Below, in pieces: positions 43,301 through 60,452 of a stretch of 64,000 bases of DNA; the stretch's first letter is position 1; each line of letters starts with the position of its first letter. The stretch is taken from the NCBI GenBank assembly GCA_014380365.1, contig JACMJZ010000007.1:150453-214452 (forward strand). The letters are read 5' to 3'. The notes beneath the pieces are model-generated. The model was not told the DNA's origin, searched no databases, and was given only the letters and a program-made list of their open reading frames with translations. This DNA is from Pyrinomonadaceae bacterium. Lineage in GTDB: Bacteria > Acidobacteriota > Blastocatellia > Pyrinomonadales > Pyrinomonadaceae. The position numbers and the translations under genes are program-made.

Positions 43301-44482
43301 CAGCGGAAGCAAAAGGATGCCAATGGCGGCGAACATGGTGGTAGCGCCTGAAACGATAGCTGTCCGCCGGAGTTGCTTTTTCAAAGTTGCCGGCAGGTGG
43401 TTTTTGACCCAATGTTCGTTGAAAACTGTTCGGTAAATCTTATTGCGGACATTCAATACGCCGGCACTTGTGCGATGGACGACGCCCGAGAGTTTGAGGT
43501 GGGATTTAACCAGCGACTGCTCCTCGTCGCGGACGCGACCTGGTTGTCGCAGAATATCCAGGTACGTGGTCAGCACCGCAGTCGGATTCTTCGCGCGCTT
43601 TGTCAGCATGTCGCGCACGAATTGAAGATTGTTGTCCTTCTCAGCTTGCTCGCCGAAAAACGTATGCGCAACTATATCGTCCAGCTCATTTCGCTCCCAA
43701 CTACCTCGCCCGTCCTGCGCAATAGCGCGGCACAAACGCAGCGTCAGGTAGGGGTGTCCGCCCGTCCATCCCAGAATCCAACCCAACACCTCCTCTGCAT
43801 GAGGGGACGGAAGCCCCAGCCCGGCCAGTAGAGGCAGTGCTTCTTCACCGTTGAAGTCAGTTAGATCAACTCGCTCACCGATGTTGAAGGGAGTGCGCTG
43901 TGGATCGCGCATCAGGTCGCTGGGAGTAGCCACCCCGATGAGCACGAATGAGAGTCGCTGGAATTCAGGAACGTGCGCTCGCGCGTTGTGGAGGTAACGT
44001 ATCGCGGCGTAGAAGTCGTCCGTGAAACCGAGACTTAGCGTGGTATCTATTTCATCAATGCAAATGACTACCTGACCCTTAACTTCCCGCATTAGCTCCT
44101 TACGGAAGTAGTCCGTCATGCGCTGCGTGGTGCTGAGATGATTGTTCTTTTCCCACCAGGAGACTACATCTCCCTCCAGGGCGAGTTGATCCTCGATGGC
44201 TGAAAGTAATCCGAGGTGCCAGGACTCGGAAGTCACGTCGGTGCCGAGTTGCGTCAGGTCAATAATTACCGTGCGTACGCCCTCTTCGTTAAGGCGCTCT
44301 ACCGTGCGTTTCATCAGGCTCGACTTGCCCATCTGCCGCGGAGTCAGTACGTAGCTGAACGTGCCGGTACGACAGAGTGCCAGTAACTCATTGTCAGCCC
44401 TGCGGGGAATGTAGATTCCCCCGCTGGCCTGCACGTCCCCGCCCACAGCGTACATGCTTGGGTTAGCCTTAATTTCGTACAT
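40322..44482 (-). CDS. AAA-like (AAA_35/STAND-type) ATPase with TM helix, long coiled coil and WD40 beta-propeller
   Basis: YVLTPRQMGKSSLMKR P-loop, VVICIDEIDTTL; TM IVSGATTMFAAIGILLLPLTLYAWY; (K/R)EAEEQR heptads; repeated VAFSPDGRYLATASxDxTARVWD units. Confidence 0.9.
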   Translation of the reverse strand: MYEIKANPSMYAVGGDVQASGGIYIPRRADNELLALCRTGTFSYVLTPRQMGKSSLMKRTVERLNEEGVRTVIIDLTQLGTDVTSESWHLGLLSAIEDQLALEGDVVSWWEKNNHLSTTQRMTDYFRKELMREVKGQVVICIDEIDTTLSLGFTDDFYAAIRYLHNARAHVPEFQRLSFVLIGVATPSDLMRDPQRTPFNIGERVDLTDFNGEEALPLLAGLGLPSPHAEEVLGWILGWTGGHPYLTLRLCRAIAQDGRGSWERNELDDIVAHTFFGEQAEKDNNLQFVRDMLTKRAKNPTAVLTTYLDILRQPGRVRDEEQSLVKSHLKLSGVVHRTSAGVLNVRNKIYRTVFNEHWVKNHLPATLKKQLRRTAIVSGATTMFAAIGILLLPLTLYAWYQKSNAEQAVNSERLARRDAETQRNRAEEAVGLERAARAEAVEQRKEAEEQRKEAEEQRQIAEQQTKEAERQRALAEELAGKETSAKKQAEARREEAQKQTENAEHQRSIAVAAGEQEQIARKEAEDLRAEAVKQEKLAKEAQRISQGGQLGAFAELTRNQQARLLKHSVLLAQESMIITPSEVGYQALSRGLALLPRPIASLPLSHPVQSVAFGKDRNTLITLRGDFTSSSGLVRQGIEAQLWTNTKPEVSGNTEFSLRFAGQGILQKDDAMRRSSLSPQGKYLAQVAQEKWEIVEMETGRKLPPLSAKLSSIPVFSPDSRYVATFNPDHTVSVWETSSLKLVSSFPNPSLSGSAAPETYVSPLSPFWENPLVFSATGDRIAITVSETIPAQIDKRVPARAFVRVYETATKNQIANLSTDLGVGVLFSPDAAGKYLATLRDGTRAAEPYVQIWDVSSQKSVARLFHSKRINRIVFSPDARYLATASDDFTARVWEIETAREVAHIIHEGEVTDLAFSPDGRYLATASADATARVWDWVSAREISRMIHQKRVNSVAFSPEGDAVATAGEDNLAQIWDVSAGTDFLNFGSKVTGREQIFMISPDGSYLVGVNQEGQIRARHIKSGRESVFDYPGFDIMFFSSNGKYLGAVTEESNGNSFVQWWDAASGRALTDREPISAEPVVAISPSGKYWVRAVLSKDDLGIVALRVIEKATAREMRLEGKSFDFVDDSTYEFVRFSGNEKYLLAYDESATLHVFDLEAGRELPFTASYVTASAFTPNGDYLAFAVGGSVHVRKMSTWQQVALLGTHTEGINRILFSPDGNHLATASSDNSAALWTVKDGRWEEPKPLYRSFTHEGSVSSVAFSRDQRYLATASDDNTTRVWEIATGREVARQTTDSVINIAFGPDDKYLAIAGSARGNSEPDVATSAQLWLWSPAALLEEACARLVPNLTAEDWRQYEEWHNAKIGVPPLKTCANLPTLPVTAP

Positions 44483-46052
44483 TGAGTTGCTCCCGGAAGT
44501 AACTTTCATAGAGTGAACAGCGGGGTATGACCTCGTGACCGTCCTGGCGCACTAATCCGGCGCCCCGTAAGCGGAAGAAGAGCAGTTTGTCTTCACACTC
44601 GTGCTTCAGGATTACGCGGCGCAACGCCTCAACGAGTTCCGCTTTCTTGTGTAGTCGGAACAGGTGGTAACGTAAATGGTCACCGAATGGTCCACGATCG
44701 TTAGTCGCCTGGCTAAAAAGCTCGTCCGGGCTACAGCGACCGCTGGCGACCAGATAGAGCGCGCGACGCACCAGGTAAGGATGGCCGTGCAACAAAGTCA
44801 TCAGGTCATCCGCCTCTTTGTTTGTCAGTGGCGAGCTGTGGAGCTGGTTCAGCCTGGAAACCTGGTCTTTATCGAAGTCGTCTAATTCGAGGACCTCACC
44901 GACGTTGAAAGGTGACTGATTCAGGTTTTCGATCAGCTGGTAAGGTTCGGTTGAGGTTACGAGTACCAAGTCAAGATATCTGGAGAGCGCAGATGGCTGC
45001 CGACTATTATGCCAACTGCGAAGCATTCCGAAGAAATCAGAGCGAAAGTCTGCCTCGAAGATGCTATCCACCTCGTCCATCGCGAAGACGAGAGGGCCGT
45101 TCACTTCTTTCAATAGATACTTGTTTAGATAACGCGTGCATCGCACTCCGTTCGGAAGTTGCCCGCGCCAGAACTCTTCCACACGATCTTCCAGATCTAA
45201 AGCGTCCGTCAGCCAGGAGCAAAACTGCTTAAAGAAGAGGTCGCCGTCGGTCAGCATAGCTTTGTCGATCAACTGAAAGTCGAGAAACGCGACGCGCTTG
45301 CCCGCCTTTGCTGCCTGGTTGATCGTGCGCATGAGGAGGGAGCTCTTCCCCATCTGGCGAGGCGCTTTAATTGTGATTGTCACTCCCTCCCGCTTAATCG
45401 CTTCAAAGGCGATTCCGTCGGATGGGCGGCGGACGTACAAGGCTGATTCCGCGTTCATTGTCCCTTCCGGCATCTCAAGAGGGACTGGTTGCGCTGAAGG
45501 GGATGGACGGGGTAACTGCTGCGGGTCGGCCGCTTGCAAAACCTGAGATAACTGATCTTCGCCAATCGGCAGAATACTGCCGGAAATAGCTAACCTTATT
45601 TCATTGATTAAGCGCACTGTGTCGGCAGGTTCGTCCCAGAGTGCCCAGTTTAGGGAATTAAGGTAAGCGCTCAACGGATACTCGAAGGGCTCTCGATAGC
45701 CCAGTCGCACCGGCAGGATCATCGGCCCTTCCGGACCTTCTTTTCTAAGCCGGTGTGCAGTCTCGACCTCGGCTAGGACCATCTCGCTATGTACGGACCG
45801 TTCGGAAAGAAAACTGATGAGAAAGTTAGAATGGCGAAGCTCGGCCTCAATGCGTTCGGCCCATGGTGTCCCAACCGGCATCAACTGATCGATAAAGACA
45901 TCGTGCTGTGATGCCAGCGCGCGGTACACCTGCATGGCTACCGATTCATCGGGGTCGCCGCCGCGCTTATAGCTAATAAAGATTCGCCGACGTGCCTCCG
46001 CAGGCTGGGATGGTGAAGAGTCTGCACCCATCATTTCATCTTCTGAACTCAT
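44469..46052 (-). CDS. TIR domain - AAA-like (AAA_35/STAND-type) ATPase
   Basis: RRRIFISYKRGGD...LISFLSERSVHSEMVLAEVETA (TIR); ITIKAPRQMGKSSLLMRT P-loop; LVFAMDEVDSIF; stop overlaps start of downstream WD40 gene. Confidence 0.9.
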   Translation of the reverse strand: MSSEDEMMGADSSPSQPAEARRRIFISYKRGGDPDESVAMQVYRALASQHDVFIDQLMPVGTPWAERIEAELRHSNFLISFLSERSVHSEMVLAEVETAHRLRKEGPEGPMILPVRLGYREPFEYPLSAYLNSLNWALWDEPADTVRLINEIRLAISGSILPIGEDQLSQVLQAADPQQLPRPSPSAQPVPLEMPEGTMNAESALYVRRPSDGIAFEAIKREGVTITIKAPRQMGKSSLLMRTINQAAKAGKRVAFLDFQLIDKAMLTDGDLFFKQFCSWLTDALDLEDRVEEFWRGQLPNGVRCTRYLNKYLLKEVNGPLVFAMDEVDSIFEADFRSDFFGMLRSWHNSRQPSALSRYLDLVLVTSTEPYQLIENLNQSPFNVGEVLELDDFDKDQVSRLNQLHSSPLTNKEADDLMTLLHGHPYLVRRALYLVASGRCSPDELFSQATNDRGPFGDHLRYHLFRLHKKAELVEALRRVILKHECEDKLLFFRLRGAGLVRQDGHEVIPRCSLYESYFREQLNVRN

Positions 46053-46469
46053 TGTGTACCTCTCAGGGAATTGAGGTTCGCGTTGGAACAACAGCAGACG
46101 GTGAACGATAAGAAATATTTTGAGACAAGGCCGGACGAGTTAACTGATCAACAGTGGGTACTCCGGTCTATTAAGGCAAACAATACAGATGCGATTTGGA
46201 GTATACACTCAGTTTAAGAACATGCAAAAATTTGTACTCCACAGTAGCCGTTGGGCAGAAGTAGAACCCGGTCGAAAGGATGAGTTAGGAAATATGTCAA
46301 ACGGCAAAATCGAAGGTGCGACGTTTGAGGAGCCAAGACCTACGTGGATGGGTAGTCGTTTCGTCTACTCGTTCCATTTCCGGTGAATAAGATCGGGTAC
46401 TCACGATCTGTTGCGTCAACCGGGCGGAGTACTTGTCACTGATTACTCTTCTTGTTAGTATCCGGCGAA

Positions 46470-47082: not shown

Positions 47083-47602
47083 GTCAGTAGTCAGTGGTCT
47101 GTTGTCAGTAGTCTCCAGTTTGGTGTAGATGACTCTTGGTAAGGGACGAATACCGGGAGTCGCACTACGCTCTCAACTCAAGGAGGCAAAATGGAAAGGA
47201 CCAACTTTGAAAAACTAAGGGTATATCGATTGTCTGAGAAACTAGCAGATGAACTATGGAAGACTGTCACAGGATGGAGCTACTTTGAACGGGACACAGT
47301 TGGCAAGCAACTGGTTCGGGCTGGTGATAGTATTGGCGCAAACATAGCTGAAGGATCTGGACGTGGTACGTTTTTGGACAATCGTCGCTTCGTAAGGATG
47401 GCTAGGGGTTCGTTGAACGAAACAAAGCACTGGCTTAGAAGAGCACACAAGCGAAGTCTACTGACAGCGGCGCAGACAACCAAACTTAAGCCAATGGTCG
47501 ATGAGTTGGCACCAATGCTGAACGCTTACCTAAACTCGATCGGAGCGGTGAAATCGCAGCAGCTCGTCCAACCTGGAGTACAACGAACCACTGACTACTG
47601 AC
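47083..47602. mobile_element. Putative four-helix-bundle gene cassette bounded by perfect 16-bp inverted repeats
   Basis: GTCAGTAGTCAGTGGT (47083-47098) and exact reverse complement ACCACTGACTACTGAC (47587-47602). Confidence 0.6.
47191..47601 (+). CDS. Four-helix bundle protein (23S rRNA intervening-sequence-protein family)
   Basis: FEKLRVYRLSEKLADELW, LVRAGDSIGANIAEGSGRGT, RMARGSLNETKHWLRRAH. Confidence 0.9.
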   Translation: MERTNFEKLRVYRLSEKLADELWKTVTGWSYFERDTVGKQLVRAGDSIGANIAEGSGRGTFLDNRRFVRMARGSLNETKHWLRRAHKRSLLTAAQTTKLKPMVDELAPMLNAYLNSIGAVKSQQLVQPGVQRTTDY

Positions 47603-50497: not shown

Positions 50498-52486
50498 CTA
50501 AAACTTCATCTCGAGCGTGAAGCTGCGGATGCGGCCTGTATCTTGTTTCTCCTTGTCTTCGACGATTAGCGTCCAGGTTCCTTGCGGACTCTTGCCCGTA
50601 AGCGCCACGAGACCAGGCGCGTTAACGCTGTCGTAGGTTTTCTTGATGTTATCGAGAGCACCGCCTTCACGGTTGTGCAGCTTGATCGCGCTGACGCCGG
50701 TACTTGCGGGTGGCTTGATGCTCACAATCAGATCGCCGATGTAGGTATGCTCGATGTCTACCGAGACCCTGATAGACTTGAGCGGCTTCGTATCCGCGAC
50801 CGCTAGATCGAGTTTTGACGTAGTAAGGTCCTTAATCGGCACATCCTGGATCGCCTTTTGGATGGAGATCGGATCAGGCTGTGGCGGCAATGCCAACTCG
50901 ACCGCCCTCTTCGCATTGATTCGTCCATAGCCGTAGATCGGGCTACGGCCGTTGGCGTCGTAGTTTCCTCCCGCGGGATCTATCTTGTCGCAGGATTGTT
51001 TGATGATGTCCCGAACCTGGTCCCAACGCAGGCTGGGATTTCGGGCGATAATCAGCGCCGCCACGCCGGCCGCACCCGGACATGAGCTCGAAGTGCCACC
51101 GAATGAGTTGGTAAAGTTTCCGGCAGCATCGCCTTTAAGCGCATTGCCCGAATTGTAGCCAAGCGAACCGGTGCGGTCCGTGGTCCAAATACCCGGCGTC
51201 AAAGACGGGTTGCCGTGATTGCTGGGAAACGCGCACCACACTGCTCCGCCGAAATCGCTGTACTCGCTCTTCTTTCCCTTATCGTTGCACGCCGCCACCG
51301 CGGTGACCTTGCTGTAACTAGCGTAGCCGTCATTGTCCACGCTCTCATTGCCATTGCCGGCGGCAAACAAAATGATACAACCCTTGCCGTTGCGGCCTTG
51401 AGTAGTAGCAAAGTCGATCGCGAGCCGGGTACTGTCAGGAAGGGGAACTGATTGGTTGTGAACTGGATCTGTCGGATCCCACCAGTCGCCATCGGGCGGA
51501 CCCCAGCTGCACGAGATGACGTCGGCTCCGTTTTGCGCTGCCCAAACGAACGCATCGGCTTCAGCCTGCGAACCAAGCACTGAGGCGAGTCGGATTGGTA
51601 TGAGACGAGCCTTGGGCGCCACGCCTGATGCGCCGAAAGTCCCATTAGCGCAGGCGACACCTGCGCAGGCAGTTCCATGATTGTCTCCATTCCCTGGGCG
51701 CGGGTTATTACTCTTGCGCGTGACGTCGCGCGGCGCGATGACCTTTCCGGCAGACTGAAACTCCTGGTGATCCATGTCCACGCCATCATCGATGACCGCA
51801 ATTGTTGCCCCCTGGCCCTCGCTCAAGGCCCAAGCCGCCTCAACACTGGCATGGGCATCAACTGAGTTGCCGTTAATGGTTGTCCTCTTGAGGTGCCACT
51901 GTTGCGGAAACGCGGAGCGCTGGCGCGACTCGCGGATGAGCTCGGGATGGCAAAACTCAACTGACGGTTCCTGCAAAAGCTTTTCAGCAATATCAAAAAC
52001 CACCAAACCCGTATCTTCGGGCGCCCCCACAAAATAGGCATTGCGGGCATACTCCAGCTCGCTCTTAATAGTCAGCTTGTAACTCTTCAGGATCTTGCGA
52101 CAGGCAGTTGCGCTCTGATCGCTGTCAAACTTGACGAAGAAGTTTTCCGTATAGAGCACCGGCTCCGCAGACTGCTGCGTGACAAGCACGCGTCCGGCGA
52201 ATTCGATCTCTGGTTCCTTTTTCAGAATTGCTCTTGCTTTGTCGCGTAGGGACTTGCTGCCGCGGACCACTTTGGTTCGTAGAATTTCCACGCCTGCCTC
52301 GCGGAACCTGGTTGTCAGCTCAAACTCACCCAAAACAGCCCGGGCTTTGGTCGATAGTGCCGAAACTCCAACGGGCGTGGGATCTGCCAAAGCGCTCCGG
52401 CTGTTTGTGCGCACCACGACATGTTCATCGCTGGTAGTGAGCGAATGTCGCTTGCCGTTTTTACCGCCATATCGAAACGAATACAT
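50498..52486 (-). CDS. S8 (subtilisin-like) serine protease with P/homo-B domain, no N-terminal signal peptide evident
   Basis: IAVIDDGVDMDHQEF (D), GDNHGTACAGVA (H), GGTSSSCPGAAGVAAL (S); C-terminal SVDIEHTYIGDLIVSIKPP..QGTWTLIVEDKEKQDTGRIRSFTLEMKF. Confidence 0.93.
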   Translation of the reverse strand: MYSFRYGGKNGKRHSLTTSDEHVVVRTNSRSALADPTPVGVSALSTKARAVLGEFELTTRFREAGVEILRTKVVRGSKSLRDKARAILKKEPEIEFAGRVLVTQQSAEPVLYTENFFVKFDSDQSATACRKILKSYKLTIKSELEYARNAYFVGAPEDTGLVVFDIAEKLLQEPSVEFCHPELIRESRQRSAFPQQWHLKRTTINGNSVDAHASVEAAWALSEGQGATIAVIDDGVDMDHQEFQSAGKVIAPRDVTRKSNNPRPGNGDNHGTACAGVACANGTFGASGVAPKARLIPIRLASVLGSQAEADAFVWAAQNGADVISCSWGPPDGDWWDPTDPVHNQSVPLPDSTRLAIDFATTQGRNGKGCIILFAAGNGNESVDNDGYASYSKVTAVAACNDKGKKSEYSDFGGAVWCAFPSNHGNPSLTPGIWTTDRTGSLGYNSGNALKGDAAGNFTNSFGGTSSSCPGAAGVAALIIARNPSLRWDQVRDIIKQSCDKIDPAGGNYDANGRSPIYGYGRINAKRAVELALPPQPDPISIQKAIQDVPIKDLTTSKLDLAVADTKPLKSIRVSVDIEHTYIGDLIVSIKPPASTGVSAIKLHNREGGALDNIKKTYDSVNAPGLVALTGKSPQGTWTLIVEDKEKQDTGRIRSFTLEMKF

Positions 52487-52952
52487 GTGATGACCTCCAA
52501 TGTGTGATTGTTAGGGACGCTCGTGAATGGATAGTGGAAGCATGACGTGAGACTGGGGAACAGAATGCTGATTATTCCAAAATACCAGGGGCCACATGGC
52601 CGGAATCATTTGCTGGTGGCGATCATCGATCATCGGACCTCGAGCGCTGCCGTGAGTGCGCGACGATTGTGAAAGCTCAATAGCCGATGTCCCGCACTCT
52701 ATGACAGTGTTTGCGCGCGTGTCAAACTTTTCCAGGTCTCCTAATAGGTATGAAAGAAAACGGAATTCATTTCAGTCAAGAGCAGCATCTCTTTGGATTT
52801 AGTGATATCGTCTTAGGCACATCGAGAGCCAGAGTAAGACGTCGGTGGTCACATTCCCCATACCGGGATTGTCCCGCTAACGGTATCGGCTTTCGGTTCG
52901 CTGGATTATCCGGTGGCTACACTTCCGGTTCTGATTTGTTTTAGGGCAAAGC

Positions 52953-53447
52953 ATGGACATTCTTGCCAAATTTCCGCCGCAGATAGCGGTAAGCTCCAGG
53001 CCAGGCGCACAGACTTACACGCTCATGCCTGGTTACTATGCGTTGCACGGGCAGCGGTCTGGGACGGACGTGCCCGCTCCCGCCTACGTCATCAACGAAG
53101 GCAAAGTCGGGGTATTTAAGGGTTCGCCGGATCCAGCAATAGTGACAAACGCGCCGGACAAAGTGAGTCCCGTCTACTTACTGAGCCCTGGTGGCTCGCC
53201 GGCCGTTCCCACCGGACTGGTATTCATCCGGTTTACGGATGGAGTGGAAGTCGGCGAACGGCTGGGAGAGATCAAGAAAGCTGGCTATAAGGTGGCTGAG
53301 ACTTTGGCCTACGCTCCCAACGCCGCATGGCTGCGGGCGCAGTCAGGCAACATCGCGGATGCACTGGCGGGATTAAAGGCACTCGAGAAAATACCTTCTG
53401 TGGAAAGCGTCGAGCCGCAAATGCTGATGGAAAGCGCTCGCCGTTAG
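52953..53447 (+). CDS. Small protein resembling the propeptide region of the adjacent S8 protease
   Basis: LVFIRFTDGVEVGERLGEIKKAGYKVAETLAYAPNAAWL..LEKIPSVESVEPQMLMESARR aligns to NFFVKFDSDQSATACRKILKSYKLTIKSELEYARNAYFV..EKLLQEPSVEFCHPELIRESRQR of 50498-52486. Confidence 0.75.
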   Translation: MDILAKFPPQIAVSSRPGAQTYTLMPGYYALHGQRSGTDVPAPAYVINEGKVGVFKGSPDPAIVTNAPDKVSPVYLLSPGGSPAVPTGLVFIRFTDGVEVGERLGEIKKAGYKVAETLAYAPNAAWLRAQSGNIADALAGLKALEKIPSVESVEPQMLMESARR

Positions 53448-55165: not shown

Positions 55166-55425
55166 CGTACTTTAGAGCTGTCTGCTTTATTTAATTTCTT
55201 CAGTGGAAGACTTGCAGGCAATCAGCGGCTTGGGTGGGGCTGAAGAGACGCTGCCGGCAAGGACTAGCTTTGCAAAAATCAGGCTGGTTAGTGGCCCGTC
55301 CCAATGGGTGGCTGTGGTTACTTGGGGTGAGCCCTGTGGTAGGCAACATTATCTCAACCCTCCAAGCGTTTAAGATCGGCCCGATCAAAAAGAGGCCCGG
55401 ACCTCAACCATTAGGAGCTGATTCA

Positions 55426-57456
55426 ATGACGACCACCATCAATTTCACGCTGCGAGCCATCTGCCTCCTGCTGATTGCCCTCGCAGTTGTTTCCACTCCC
55501 ACTTTCGCCCAGAACCCGGCCGACAAGACACTTGCACCCTACTTCGTGGTGAAGGGCGACCCGAGCGTCGATCATTTGCCGCTAAAAGATACCCGCGTTG
55601 ACATCGCTGTTTCAGGGGTCATTGCGGACGTGAAGGTAGTGCAAACCTATCGCAATGAGGGCTCGCGGCCGATCAATGCGGCTTATGTCTTTCCGGCATC
55701 TACGCGTGCCGCTGTTTACTCCATGCGGATGCGAATCGGCGATCGGGTGATCGTGGCGAAGATAAAAGAACGCGAAGCAGCGAAGCAGGAGTTTGATGCG
55801 GCGAAGAAGGAAGGCAAGAGCGCGTCTCTGCTCGAACAGGACAGGCCAAACGTATTCTCGATGAGCCTGGCCAACATCATGCCGCAGGATCAAATCGAGA
55901 TTGAGCTGCGTTACACAGAACTGCTGGTGCCGACAGAGGGAGTTTACGAGGTGATCTATCCGACCGTGGTTGGCCCGCGCTACTCTTCGCAGACGGAATC
56001 GTCCGCGCCAAAGCAAGATGGGTTCGTTAAGAGTCCGTATTTGCGCCAGGGGAAACAGCCGACCAGCACGCTCCACATTTCCGCCAGAATCTCCGCCGGT
56101 GTGCCCATTCAGGACTTTAACTGCGCGTCGCACAAGGTTTCTCCGATATGGCCGAGTGCAACGGTTGTTCAACTGACTTTGGACGAAGCGGATGCCTTGC
56201 AGGGAAATCGCGACTTTGTGTTGCGCTACCGTTTGGCCGGAAATCAAATCACATCCGGTCTGCTTCTCTTCCAGGGCGAAGATGAAAACTTCTTTCTCTA
56301 CATGGCCCAGCCACCGCTACGAGTAGCGAGCGAGGACATCCCCGCCCGCGAGTACATTTTTGTCGTAGACGTTTCGGGTTCCATGAATGGCTTTCCGCTG
56401 AACACTTCCAAGCAGTTGCTGCGCGACTTGATCGGTCAACTGCGTCCAACGGATCTTTTCAACGTCGTCTTGTTTGCAGGCGACTCCAGCGTGCTTTCTC
56501 CCAAATCGCTGCAGGCAAATCAGGAAAACATCGCGCTCGCCATTCGTCTGCTTGAAGAACAGCGTGGCAGCGGAGGCACCGAACTTCTTCCCGCGGTGCA
56601 ACAAGCCATGAGCTTGCCGCGCGAAACCAGCATCTCGCGGAGTATCGTGCTGGTGACCGATGGTTACATTTCTGGCGAGCAGGGTGTCTTCGATTACATT
56701 CGCGCAAATCTTAATCAGTGCAACGTGTTCTCGTTTGGCATCGGCTCCTCAGTCAATCGTTATCTGATTGAAGGTGTGGCGAAGGCCGGAATGGGTGAGC
56801 CTTTCATCGTGACCAATGAGTCTGAGGCTCCGGCGATTGCCGCGAAGTTTCGGGAATACATTCAGACCCCCGTCCTGACCAGCATTCAGGTCCGAGCCAA
56901 CGGCTTCGAGACCTACGATGTGCACCCGGGCCACCTGCCAGATTTGTTGGCGCAACGTCCTGTGATCCTGTTCGGCAAATGGCGCGGGCCAGTCACCGGA
57001 ACATTTGAACTGACGGGAAAAACAGGGAGCGGCGACTACCTGACCAGACTGGATGTCGGCGGCGTCCAGCCGGACGAGGGGAATCGCGCGCTGCGTTACC
57101 TCTGGGCCCGTTCGCGAATTGCTGAACTGTCAGACTACGGGTCAAGAAGTGTGTCCGGTGAGAGAGTCAAGGAAATTACTTCACTGGGTCTTAAGTACAG
57201 CTTGTTGACCCAGTACACATCCTTCATCGCGGTGCTGGAAGAGATTCGAAATCCACTGGGTTCGGCGAAGGATGTGAAGCAACCGTTGCCGCTGCCGCTT
57301 GGAGTAAGCGATCTGGCAGTGGGTCAGGGCACTGAAGCCGGTAGTGAACCCGAACTCGCGTGGTTGATAGCCGTGTCTCTGCTGCTCGGGCTGTTCATGA
57401 TATTTCGCTCGCGTCGGCGCTCTCATTCACACCCGGTTGAAACTGGGTGGGAATGA
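55426..57456 (+). CDS. VIT - von Willebrand factor A domain protein with exosortase-type C-terminus
   Basis: Signal peptide; VIT region (VVQTYRNEGSRPINAAYVFPASTRAAVYSMRMRIGDRVI); vWA MIDAS FVVDVSGSMNG; C-terminal SEPE - TM - RSRRRS. Confidence 0.92.
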   Translation: MTTTINFTLRAICLLLIALAVVSTPTFAQNPADKTLAPYFVVKGDPSVDHLPLKDTRVDIAVSGVIADVKVVQTYRNEGSRPINAAYVFPASTRAAVYSMRMRIGDRVIVAKIKEREAAKQEFDAAKKEGKSASLLEQDRPNVFSMSLANIMPQDQIEIELRYTELLVPTEGVYEVIYPTVVGPRYSSQTESSAPKQDGFVKSPYLRQGKQPTSTLHISARISAGVPIQDFNCASHKVSPIWPSATVVQLTLDEADALQGNRDFVLRYRLAGNQITSGLLLFQGEDENFFLYMAQPPLRVASEDIPAREYIFVVDVSGSMNGFPLNTSKQLLRDLIGQLRPTDLFNVVLFAGDSSVLSPKSLQANQENIALAIRLLEEQRGSGGTELLPAVQQAMSLPRETSISRSIVLVTDGYISGEQGVFDYIRANLNQCNVFSFGIGSSVNRYLIEGVAKAGMGEPFIVTNESEAPAIAAKFREYIQTPVLTSIQVRANGFETYDVHPGHLPDLLAQRPVILFGKWRGPVTGTFELTGKTGSGDYLTRLDVGGVQPDEGNRALRYLWARSRIAELSDYGSRSVSGERVKEITSLGLKYSLLTQYTSFIAVLEEIRNPLGSAKDVKQPLPLPLGVSDLAVGQGTEAGSEPELAWLIAVSLLLGLFMIFRSRRRSHSHPVETGWE

Positions 57457-57468
57457 GAGAGAACGCTT

Positions 57469-58386
57469 ATGAACTGGCGACTAATCTACAAACAAGGCGC
57501 ACAACTCCTTCTCGTGCTGCTGAGCGCGCTGGCACTCAAGCAGTACTACGCAACCGCCAGCGTCGACCAACTGCGTTGGATACTCGCCCCGACAACTTTC
57601 GTCGTCGAGTTACTCACCGGTTCCCAGTTCGAGTTCGAATCGCACGCTGGCTACATGTCGAGCGACCGCAGGTTTGTGATTGCCGCCTCGTGTGCCGGGG
57701 TCAATTTCCTGATTACCGCATTCCTCATGCTTTCGTTAAGAAAACTCTGGAGTGAACGAAAGACCTCCTGGAGATTCATCCCGGCAGCAGGTCTCGTTGC
57801 TTACCTCGCAACTATCGTCGCCAATACCTTTCGGATTTCCACGGCGTTATATCTACAGCGCACACCTTTGGAGATAGGCTGGTTGAACGAAAATCAACTC
57901 CACCGGCTCGAAGGGATCTTCATCTACTTTGGATTTCTACTGTTGCTGTTTCTGGTGAGCGAAAGAAAAGGTCGGAGCAAGAGAAGCGAGCCCGGGACCG
58001 CCCCCAGCTCCATACCTGATCAGGCGAGGACGTTTAGTTCGAACCAGGCAGATGCGCGCGTCAGGCCGGCGACGAGTGAATCCCAAGTGCACCGCGACGG
58101 GCTGCTGCGCCAATCCTTCTTCCCGCTGCTGGTCTATTACGCGACGACCTTAGGAATTCCCCTTGCCACGTCCGCCTATCGCACCGGACCCGTTGCATCC
58201 GACTTTCTGGAGCACTCCGCTTTCGTATTGCTGGCTCCCCTAATCCTGCTTCTCCTGTTCGCCACCTTCCGGCTTGCCGTCCGCGTGGCGTCGCGGGGGC
58301 TCCCAACAGCAGACACTCATGCCGGCGGTCGCAATGAGTCTGCAGATCACACAGATTCCGCAGATGTCTTAATCCCATCTGTGTAA
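57469..58386 (+). CDS. Exosortase (XrtK-like)
   Basis: Multi-TM with catalytic-type Cys (FVIAASCAGVNFLITAF), Arg (IVANTFRISTALYL) and His (NENQLHRLEGIFIYF). Confidence 0.85.
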   Translation: MNWRLIYKQGAQLLLVLLSALALKQYYATASVDQLRWILAPTTFVVELLTGSQFEFESHAGYMSSDRRFVIAASCAGVNFLITAFLMLSLRKLWSERKTSWRFIPAAGLVAYLATIVANTFRISTALYLQRTPLEIGWLNENQLHRLEGIFIYFGFLLLLFLVSERKGRSKRSEPGTAPSSIPDQARTFSSNQADARVRPATSESQVHRDGLLRQSFFPLLVYYATTLGIPLATSAYRTGPVASDFLEHSAFVLLAPLILLLLFATFRLAVRVASRGLPTADTHAGGRNESADHTDSADVLIPSV

Positions 58387-60179: not shown

Positions 60180-60452
60180 CGAACACGTGCCAAGACCTCG
60201 CGTCCGCGTGCAAAGACGCCACGAACAGGTGTAAAGACGCCGCGTACACGTGCAAAGACGCCACGTACACCTGCAAAGACGCCACGTAGACGTGTAAAAA
60301 CGCCGCGTACACGTGTAAAGACGCCGCGTACACCTGCAAAGACGCCGCGTACACGTGCAAAGACGCCGCGTACACGTGCAAAACCCCCACGTACACGTGT
60401 AGAGATGCCGCGTGCACGTGCAAAAACCCCACGTACACGTGCAAAATACCGA
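60180..60452. repeat. 21-bp minisatellite, 13 units
   Basis: Consensus CGTACACGTGCAAAGACGCCG; units delimited by direct reading. Confidence 0.95.

Follow-up and report, generated by a model that had tools for sequence, protein, structure and literature searches.

A divergently encoded, stand-alone prodomain-like protein as candidate trans-acting partner of a PrcA-type, kexin-like protease in a Pyrinomonadaceae bacterium

What use could a serine protease that carries a pro-region of its own make of a second, prodomain-like protein encoded back to back with it? This question is raised by a gene pair in the window, i.e. the 64,000-nucleotide stretch of contig JACMJZ010000007.1 (Pyrinomonadaceae bacterium, Acidobacteriota) that was analysed here, in which an S8 protease gene and a divergent 164-aa open reading frame lie at exactly the coordinates given in a first-pass annotation (Table 1). 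From our point of view, the best explanation, to which we assign a probability of roughly 60%, is that the small protein represents a dedicated, separately encoded prodomain that acts in trans on a PrcA-type protease, as an inhibitor in the first place and perhaps also as a chaperone. An RNA element or a strong promoter in the divergent region was considered and rejected, as no Rfam family matched and the one sigma-70-like site, located on the protease strand, gave a count that was not above that of shuffled sequences.

Table 1. Position of the gene pair and its parts in the window.
Feature	Position	Strand	Basis
S8 (kexin-like) serine protease, PrcA type, 662 aa	50498..52486	-	Pfam, PDB relatives, orthologues
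Final domain of the protease pro-region (residues about 100-191)	51914..52189	-	BLASTP and hhalign; homologous to the C-terminal domain of the small protein
Divergent intergenic region, 466 bp between the two start codons	52487..52952	.	
Stand-alone prodomain-like small protein, 164 aa	52953..53447	+	14 relatives, AlphaFold2, substitution pattern
Beta-rich N-terminal part (residues 1-76) of the small protein	52953..53180	+	hhalign, AlphaFold2
C-terminal part of the small protein	53199..53444	+	AlphaFold2 and DSSP; Foldseek 3wqb_B, 9fid, 1spb_P, 3whi; R164 invariant

The protease combines a Peptidase_S8 domain (E = 1e-41) with a P_proprotein domain (E = 5e-14; both Pfam) and is laid out as a pro-region (residues about 1-190), a catalytic domain (about 192-540) and a P domain (about 560-660). 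The catalytic triad, assigned by alignment with kexin and by invariant columns, consists of Asp233, His270 and Ser466, which do not vary among 14 protease sequences, and the oxyanion residue is Asn378. By sequence, the protease is related to the structurally solved enzymes mirolase, kexin, furin, thermitase and ASP, a serine protease of Aeromonas sobria. Full-length orthologues from 13 loci share 59-71% identity with it, and those of the 12 Nostocales loci, all of 662 aa (one 661) and with an S8 and a P domain, lie at 67.8-71.0% over 660-662 aa; by sequence, the window protease is thus of the PrcA ("calcium-dependent protease") type. In furin and kexin, two acidic residues of the S1 pocket select for Arg or Lys. 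Asp332 (in SWGPPD) and Asp386 (in DGY) of the window protease, which are invariant in the family and align with the acids of kexin, are what we take to be the equivalents of this pair, and a cleavage specificity for Arg/Lys is predicted from them. An AlphaFold2 model of the full protease, computed from 14 close sequences, was poor (pLDDT 48), and its Foldseek matches to kexin, furin and ASP merely repeat the sequence result. For residues 12-103 (about 52178-52453, minus strand), a strand-helix-strand-strand-helix-strand succession is predicted at moderate to low confidence. The protease may contain two tandem prodomain-like units, and sequence profiles show no link between the first and the last of them.

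According to the first-pass annotation, the C-terminal half of the small protein aligns with the stretch just before the catalytic domain of its neighbour, and this similarity was borne out by both sequence methods used. With BLASTP, residues 74-164 match protease residues 100-190 at 25% identity over 93 aa (E = 9e-4), and with hhalign, using family profiles of 14 members each, the C-terminal domain matches protease residues 100-191 with a probability of 92% (E = 6e-7). All other protease segments, namely the first pro-region, the catalytic domain and the P domain, scored 0.3% or less, and 100 column-shuffled pro-domain controls reached a maximum of 1.8%, which rules out chance similarity. Applied to the open reading frames of independently fetched cyanobacterial loci, the C-domain profile likewise retrieved PrcA pro-regions (E = 7e-6 to 6e-3), with mostly other S8 proteases as the next-best matches, and individual small proteins aligned to the pro-regions of distant S8 proteases at 24-27% identity (best E = 0.002-0.01).

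Curated family models see little of this relationship. No Pfam or NCBIfam model matches the small protein, the Pfam prodomain models (I9, fervidolysin, S8 pro-domain) included, and the best prodomain match among the 14 small proteins is that of the fervidolysin prodomain in two of them (E = 0.11); ORF_2_N (PF18492) is absent from all 14 in a scan up to E = 10. The pro-region of the protease gives weak Pfam matches, below cut-offs, to the fervidolysin prodomain and to ORF_2_N (for the latter E = 0.006 in locus L002 and 0.16 in the window), and sequence searches of the PDB returned no meaningful relative for either the small protein or the pro-region. For the N-terminal 76 or so residues of the small protein, no relatives were found outside its own family, and hhalign stayed below 1% against all protease segments; an origin of this half from the first pro-domain of the protease was rejected, since the score there was 0.3% and carried no signal.

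The predicted fold agrees with the alignments. AlphaFold2, run with 14 sequences, gave a model of the small protein with a mean pLDDT of 86 and a pTM of 0.80, in which residues 81-150 reach a mean pLDDT of about 90 or more and the N-terminal region forms strands of mixed confidence. Foldseek compared this model with a probability of 1.00 to ORF2, the chaperone of ASP (3wqb_B), to the PAM protease (8c4x_B), to the PC1/3 prodomain on furin (9fid, chains D-F), to pro-subtilisin E (3whi_B) and to the subtilisin BPN' prosegment (1spb_P). As such, the propeptide-like fold that had been postulated for the small protein is recovered at the level of the predicted structure. The Foldseek E-values are modest (best for a prodomain 0.009, ORF2), because only one domain of a two-domain query is matched and because the fold is a common one; they and the BLASTP values are each weak alone and mutually consistent. 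At probabilities of 0.99-1.00, the PDB matches are mainly subtilase prodomains or ORF2, with EF-1 beta (0.99) as the sole unrelated exception, and further unrelated ferredoxin-like matches, to RNA-binding domains, score lower. Among the Nostocales, substitutions in the C-terminal domain are biased to third codon positions, which indicates that the small gene is selected as a protein, and it is the prodomain-like half, not the N-terminal one, that is better conserved.

The two proteins also resemble each other where a prodomain would meet the active site. The pro-region of the protease ends in ..HPELIRESRQR and the catalytic part starts with SAFPQQWHLK, so that a putative processing site, ..RESRQR/SAFPQQWHL, lies after residue 190. 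The small protein of the window ends in ..VEPQMLMESARR, followed by the stop codon, and its R164 is aligned with the processing-site position of the pro-region and is invariant across the family. In 12 of 18 small proteins this Arg is the last residue; the other six carry 1-3 further residues and would consequently need trimming or another geometry. A C-terminal Arg is what one would expect of a product-like inhibitor. For ORF2, which inhibits ASP with an IC50 of 84 nM (PMC5638518), the same paper places the C-terminal Lys at the catalytic centre of the enzyme, and by analogy we expect the window pair to adopt this geometry too, with Arg in place of Lys.

Co-occurrence of divergent pairs in other genomes had been proposed as a check in the first-pass annotation, and the pairing proved to be conserved. 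A scan of reference-genome contigs yielded 14 proteins related to the small protein at 36-52% identity, 12 from Nostocales, one from a Synechococcales MAG and one from a planctomycete MAG, each of which (14/14) is encoded head-to-head with a PrcA-type protease. Of a set of 194 cyanobacterial genomes, six encode a close PrcA (68-70% identity) and five the small protein; the five all belong to the six, with adjacent genes in 5/5, and none of the other 188 genomes holds the small gene. The sixth, the Nostoc-like G189, has kept PrcA and lost the small gene, in whose place a DUF4351 gene is found (L034:982-1470), and the partner is therefore dispensable there. Among the 12 Nostocales loci, at least six different and unrelated sets of neighbours lie downstream of the pair, which means that the pair and not the region is conserved. 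Within 1.5 kb of distant cyanobacterial S8 proteases (35-41% identity), family profiles detected no stand-alone partners, and the weak profile matches near these genes were mostly the proteases' own pro-regions. In the Synechococcales MAG (L015), both genes of the pair are split into several frames, reflecting either decay or errors of a low-coverage assembly.

Closer to the window genome the pair is missing. Neither gene turned up in 58 relatives, among them 15 congeners, and the small-protein profile had no match in 395 other genomes of the phylum. The adjoining pyrC is present in 8/8 relatives checked (68-81% identity), and the pair is found in none of the five relatives in which the sequence downstream of pyrC was read. 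This distribution suggests that the pair was acquired by transfer, and since its GC and GC3 values match those of the neighbouring genes, such a transfer, if any, was not recent.

Some other genes of the window may be recorded here. Within the pyrimidine gene cluster, between apparent pyrR and pyrB genes, sits a gene for a protein of the 23S rRNA-intervening-sequence-protein family (four-helix; 47191-47601, plus strand; E = 1e-27). Another gene (44469-46091, minus strand), some 4.4 kb away from that of the protease, encodes an N-terminal TIR domain (TIR_2, E = 6e-17) joined to an AAA_35 NTPase domain (E = 4e-110), and its product may act in defence or signalling. At 55234-58386 (plus strand), a gene for a VIT/VWA protein is directly followed by one for an exosortase-family (EpsH) membrane protein, and a tandem array of a 21-bp unit (60183-60445; 12.5 copies, 80% matches) is free of stops on both strands and would read there as Arg-rich repeats.

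The Anabaena calcium-dependent protease was reportedly cloned by Maldener in 1991. In Anabaena PCC 7120, Alr1381 is annotated as prcA, calcium-dependent protease (PMC3610870), and an exoproteome study lists it together with All1380, a protein of "no similarity", as products of contiguous, divergent genes, with All1380 in the medium of both nitrate- and ammonium-grown cultures and PrcA in that of nitrate-grown ones (PMC4390845). By annotation and gene order, Alr1381 is the likely counterpart of the window protease, and by gene order and orientation All1380 is that of the small protein. As judged by eye, neither window protein has an N-terminal signal peptide, just as the first-pass annotation had it. 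Of the two possibilities derived from this, action in the cytosol or release by another route, the occurrence of the Anabaena counterparts in the medium favours release over purely cytosolic action, with the caveat that some of the listed proteins may be released cytoplasmic ones, so that presence in the medium is no proof of secretion (PMC4390845). A signal peptide in the N-terminal extension of the cyanobacterial copies was rejected, as this stretch shows little codon-position bias; the real start is therefore probably a downstream GTG, and the extension may be untranslated.

How could such a protein work? We infer that it would bind to the mature protease in trans, in the manner of a prodomain: its Arg-ending tail would fill the active-site cleft and place the Arg in the acidic S1 pocket, much as a cleavage product would that stays bound. 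By this means, the mature, presumably Arg/Lys-specific protease would be held inactive once its own pro-region has been cut off, in the cell and perhaps also outside, while the small protein might additionally help the protease to fold and its unrelated N-terminal domain would probably contribute affinity or localisation. Between inhibitor and chaperone, both of which the first-pass annotation had suggested, we would favour the inhibitor, since an enzyme that already carries a pro-region would most likely require a second, independently controlled one to keep its mature form in check once it has been processed. What counts against a trans-acting prodomain is that the protease's own pro-region could make a second one redundant. 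For a role in immunity, which had been suggested too, or as part of a toxin-antitoxin system, no evidence was found at this locus.

One could also imagine that the small protein is chiefly an external folding chaperone like ORF2, that PrcA is inactive without it and that inhibition is a transient by-product. The protease is after all kexin-like and related to ASP; ASP, however, is propeptide-deficient according to two papers (PMC5638518, PMC9549277), whereas the window protease keeps a homologous pro-region as a possible intramolecular chaperone. ORF2 (3wqb_B) ranks among the best prodomain-fold matches and the PrcA pro-region itself matches the ORF2 family PF18492 weakly, but PrcA is retained in G189 without the small gene and the two genes are arranged divergently and not as an operon. 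A 1996 paper (Baier; cited in PMC7551518) deals, by its title, with propeptide-assisted folding of the Anabaena enzyme, which would also fit a chaperone. On balance, we regard a primary chaperone function as unlikely.

It is improbable, in our opinion, that the small protein is instead a substrate of PrcA or a zymogen-like effector that is cut after its C-terminal Arg or elsewhere to yield the N-terminal domain as functional product: the short tail that follows the invariant Arg in some members does look like a cleavable site, yet most members end at the Arg and leave nothing to cut, and the N-terminal domain, conserved as it is within the family, is less so than the prodomain-like half. Very improbable is a mere neighbourhood without functional interaction, in which the resemblance would reflect nothing but an old domain relationship. 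Against it speak the linkage of the two genes in all 14 loci, which span different phyla, their staying together in at least six kinds of surroundings, a small gene in 5/6 of the cyanobacterial genomes with PrcA and in 0/188 of the others, and a C-terminus that matches the processing site of the enzyme itself, although the ferredoxin-like fold is common, as the unrelated Foldseek matches illustrate.

Taking the trans-acting prodomain as the basis, one could speculate further, and tentatively, at somewhat less than even odds, that the pair forms a two-gene bacterial switch, in which a kexin-like protease is kept first under its own pro-region and then under a separately encoded and regulated trans prodomain with an additional targeting domain and, at its end, the P1 residue that the enzyme prefers. 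This cassette would have moved between Acidobacteriota, cyanobacteria and planctomycetes, with both parts released into the medium in Anabaena.

The window pair shares with Anabaena PrcA (Alr1381) the divergent neighbour, which lies in the position of All1380 in PCC 7120. The literature found on Anabaena PrcA treats the protease alone and describes no dedicated regulator of it; All1380 was mentioned in the searched literature only as a protein of "no similarity" (PMC4390845). The window pair points to the divergent neighbour as a candidate for such a regulator. Stand-alone prodomains are known mainly from eukaryotes, and the bacterial case that we found, ORF2, serves an enzyme without propeptide. 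If our reading is true, the pair would show bacteria adding control in trans over zymogen control, and the small protein would be a naturally occurring inhibitor of a proprotein-convertase-like enzyme from bacteria.

Several known systems offer themselves for comparison. In its predicted fold, the small protein equals the prodomains of subtilisin, furin and PC1/3 (1spb_P, 9fid, 3whi), whose C-terminal tails occupy the active site in the known complex structures; those prodomains are, however, part of the enzyme precursor, whereas the small protein has a gene of its own. Small separate products with a subtilase propeptide fold are also found in the stand-alone inhibitors of MEROPS family I9 (Pleurotus POIA1, yeast proteinase B inhibitor, Arabidopsis SPI-1) and in the apicomplexan SUB1-ProM and TgMIC5 (PMC6993865), of which SUB1-ProM has its gene beside subtilase genes and acts as inhibitor of a subtilase already equipped with a propeptide of its own (PMC6993865). 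All of these are eukaryotic, in contrast to the bacterial small protein, which moreover differs from the I9 inhibitors in having no detectable Pfam I9 match, in its strict one-to-one divergent pairing and in a tail that ends in Arg, as would suit an enzyme of predicted Arg/Lys specificity. In the ASP-ORF2 system of Aeromonas sobria (S8B, PDB 3wqb, PMC5638518), a kexin-like protease, which is secreted, is likewise encoded beside a separate gene for a prodomain fold; ORF2 is the top-scoring prodomain-type structure for the small protein, and both proteins end in a basic residue, Lys in ORF2 and Arg in the small protein. Unlike ASP, which is made without a propeptide, the window protease has a homologous pro-region of about 190 residues. 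Furthermore, orf2 lies downstream in an operon whereas the small gene is divergent, and the small protein, in contrast to ORF2, has no ORF_2_N match and carries its prodomain-like part C-terminally, behind an unrelated domain. Overall, not of the ORF2 family by sequence and with an enzyme that keeps its own prodomain, the pair is closest in its proposed working to ASP-ORF2 and to the stand-alone I9-like inhibitors.
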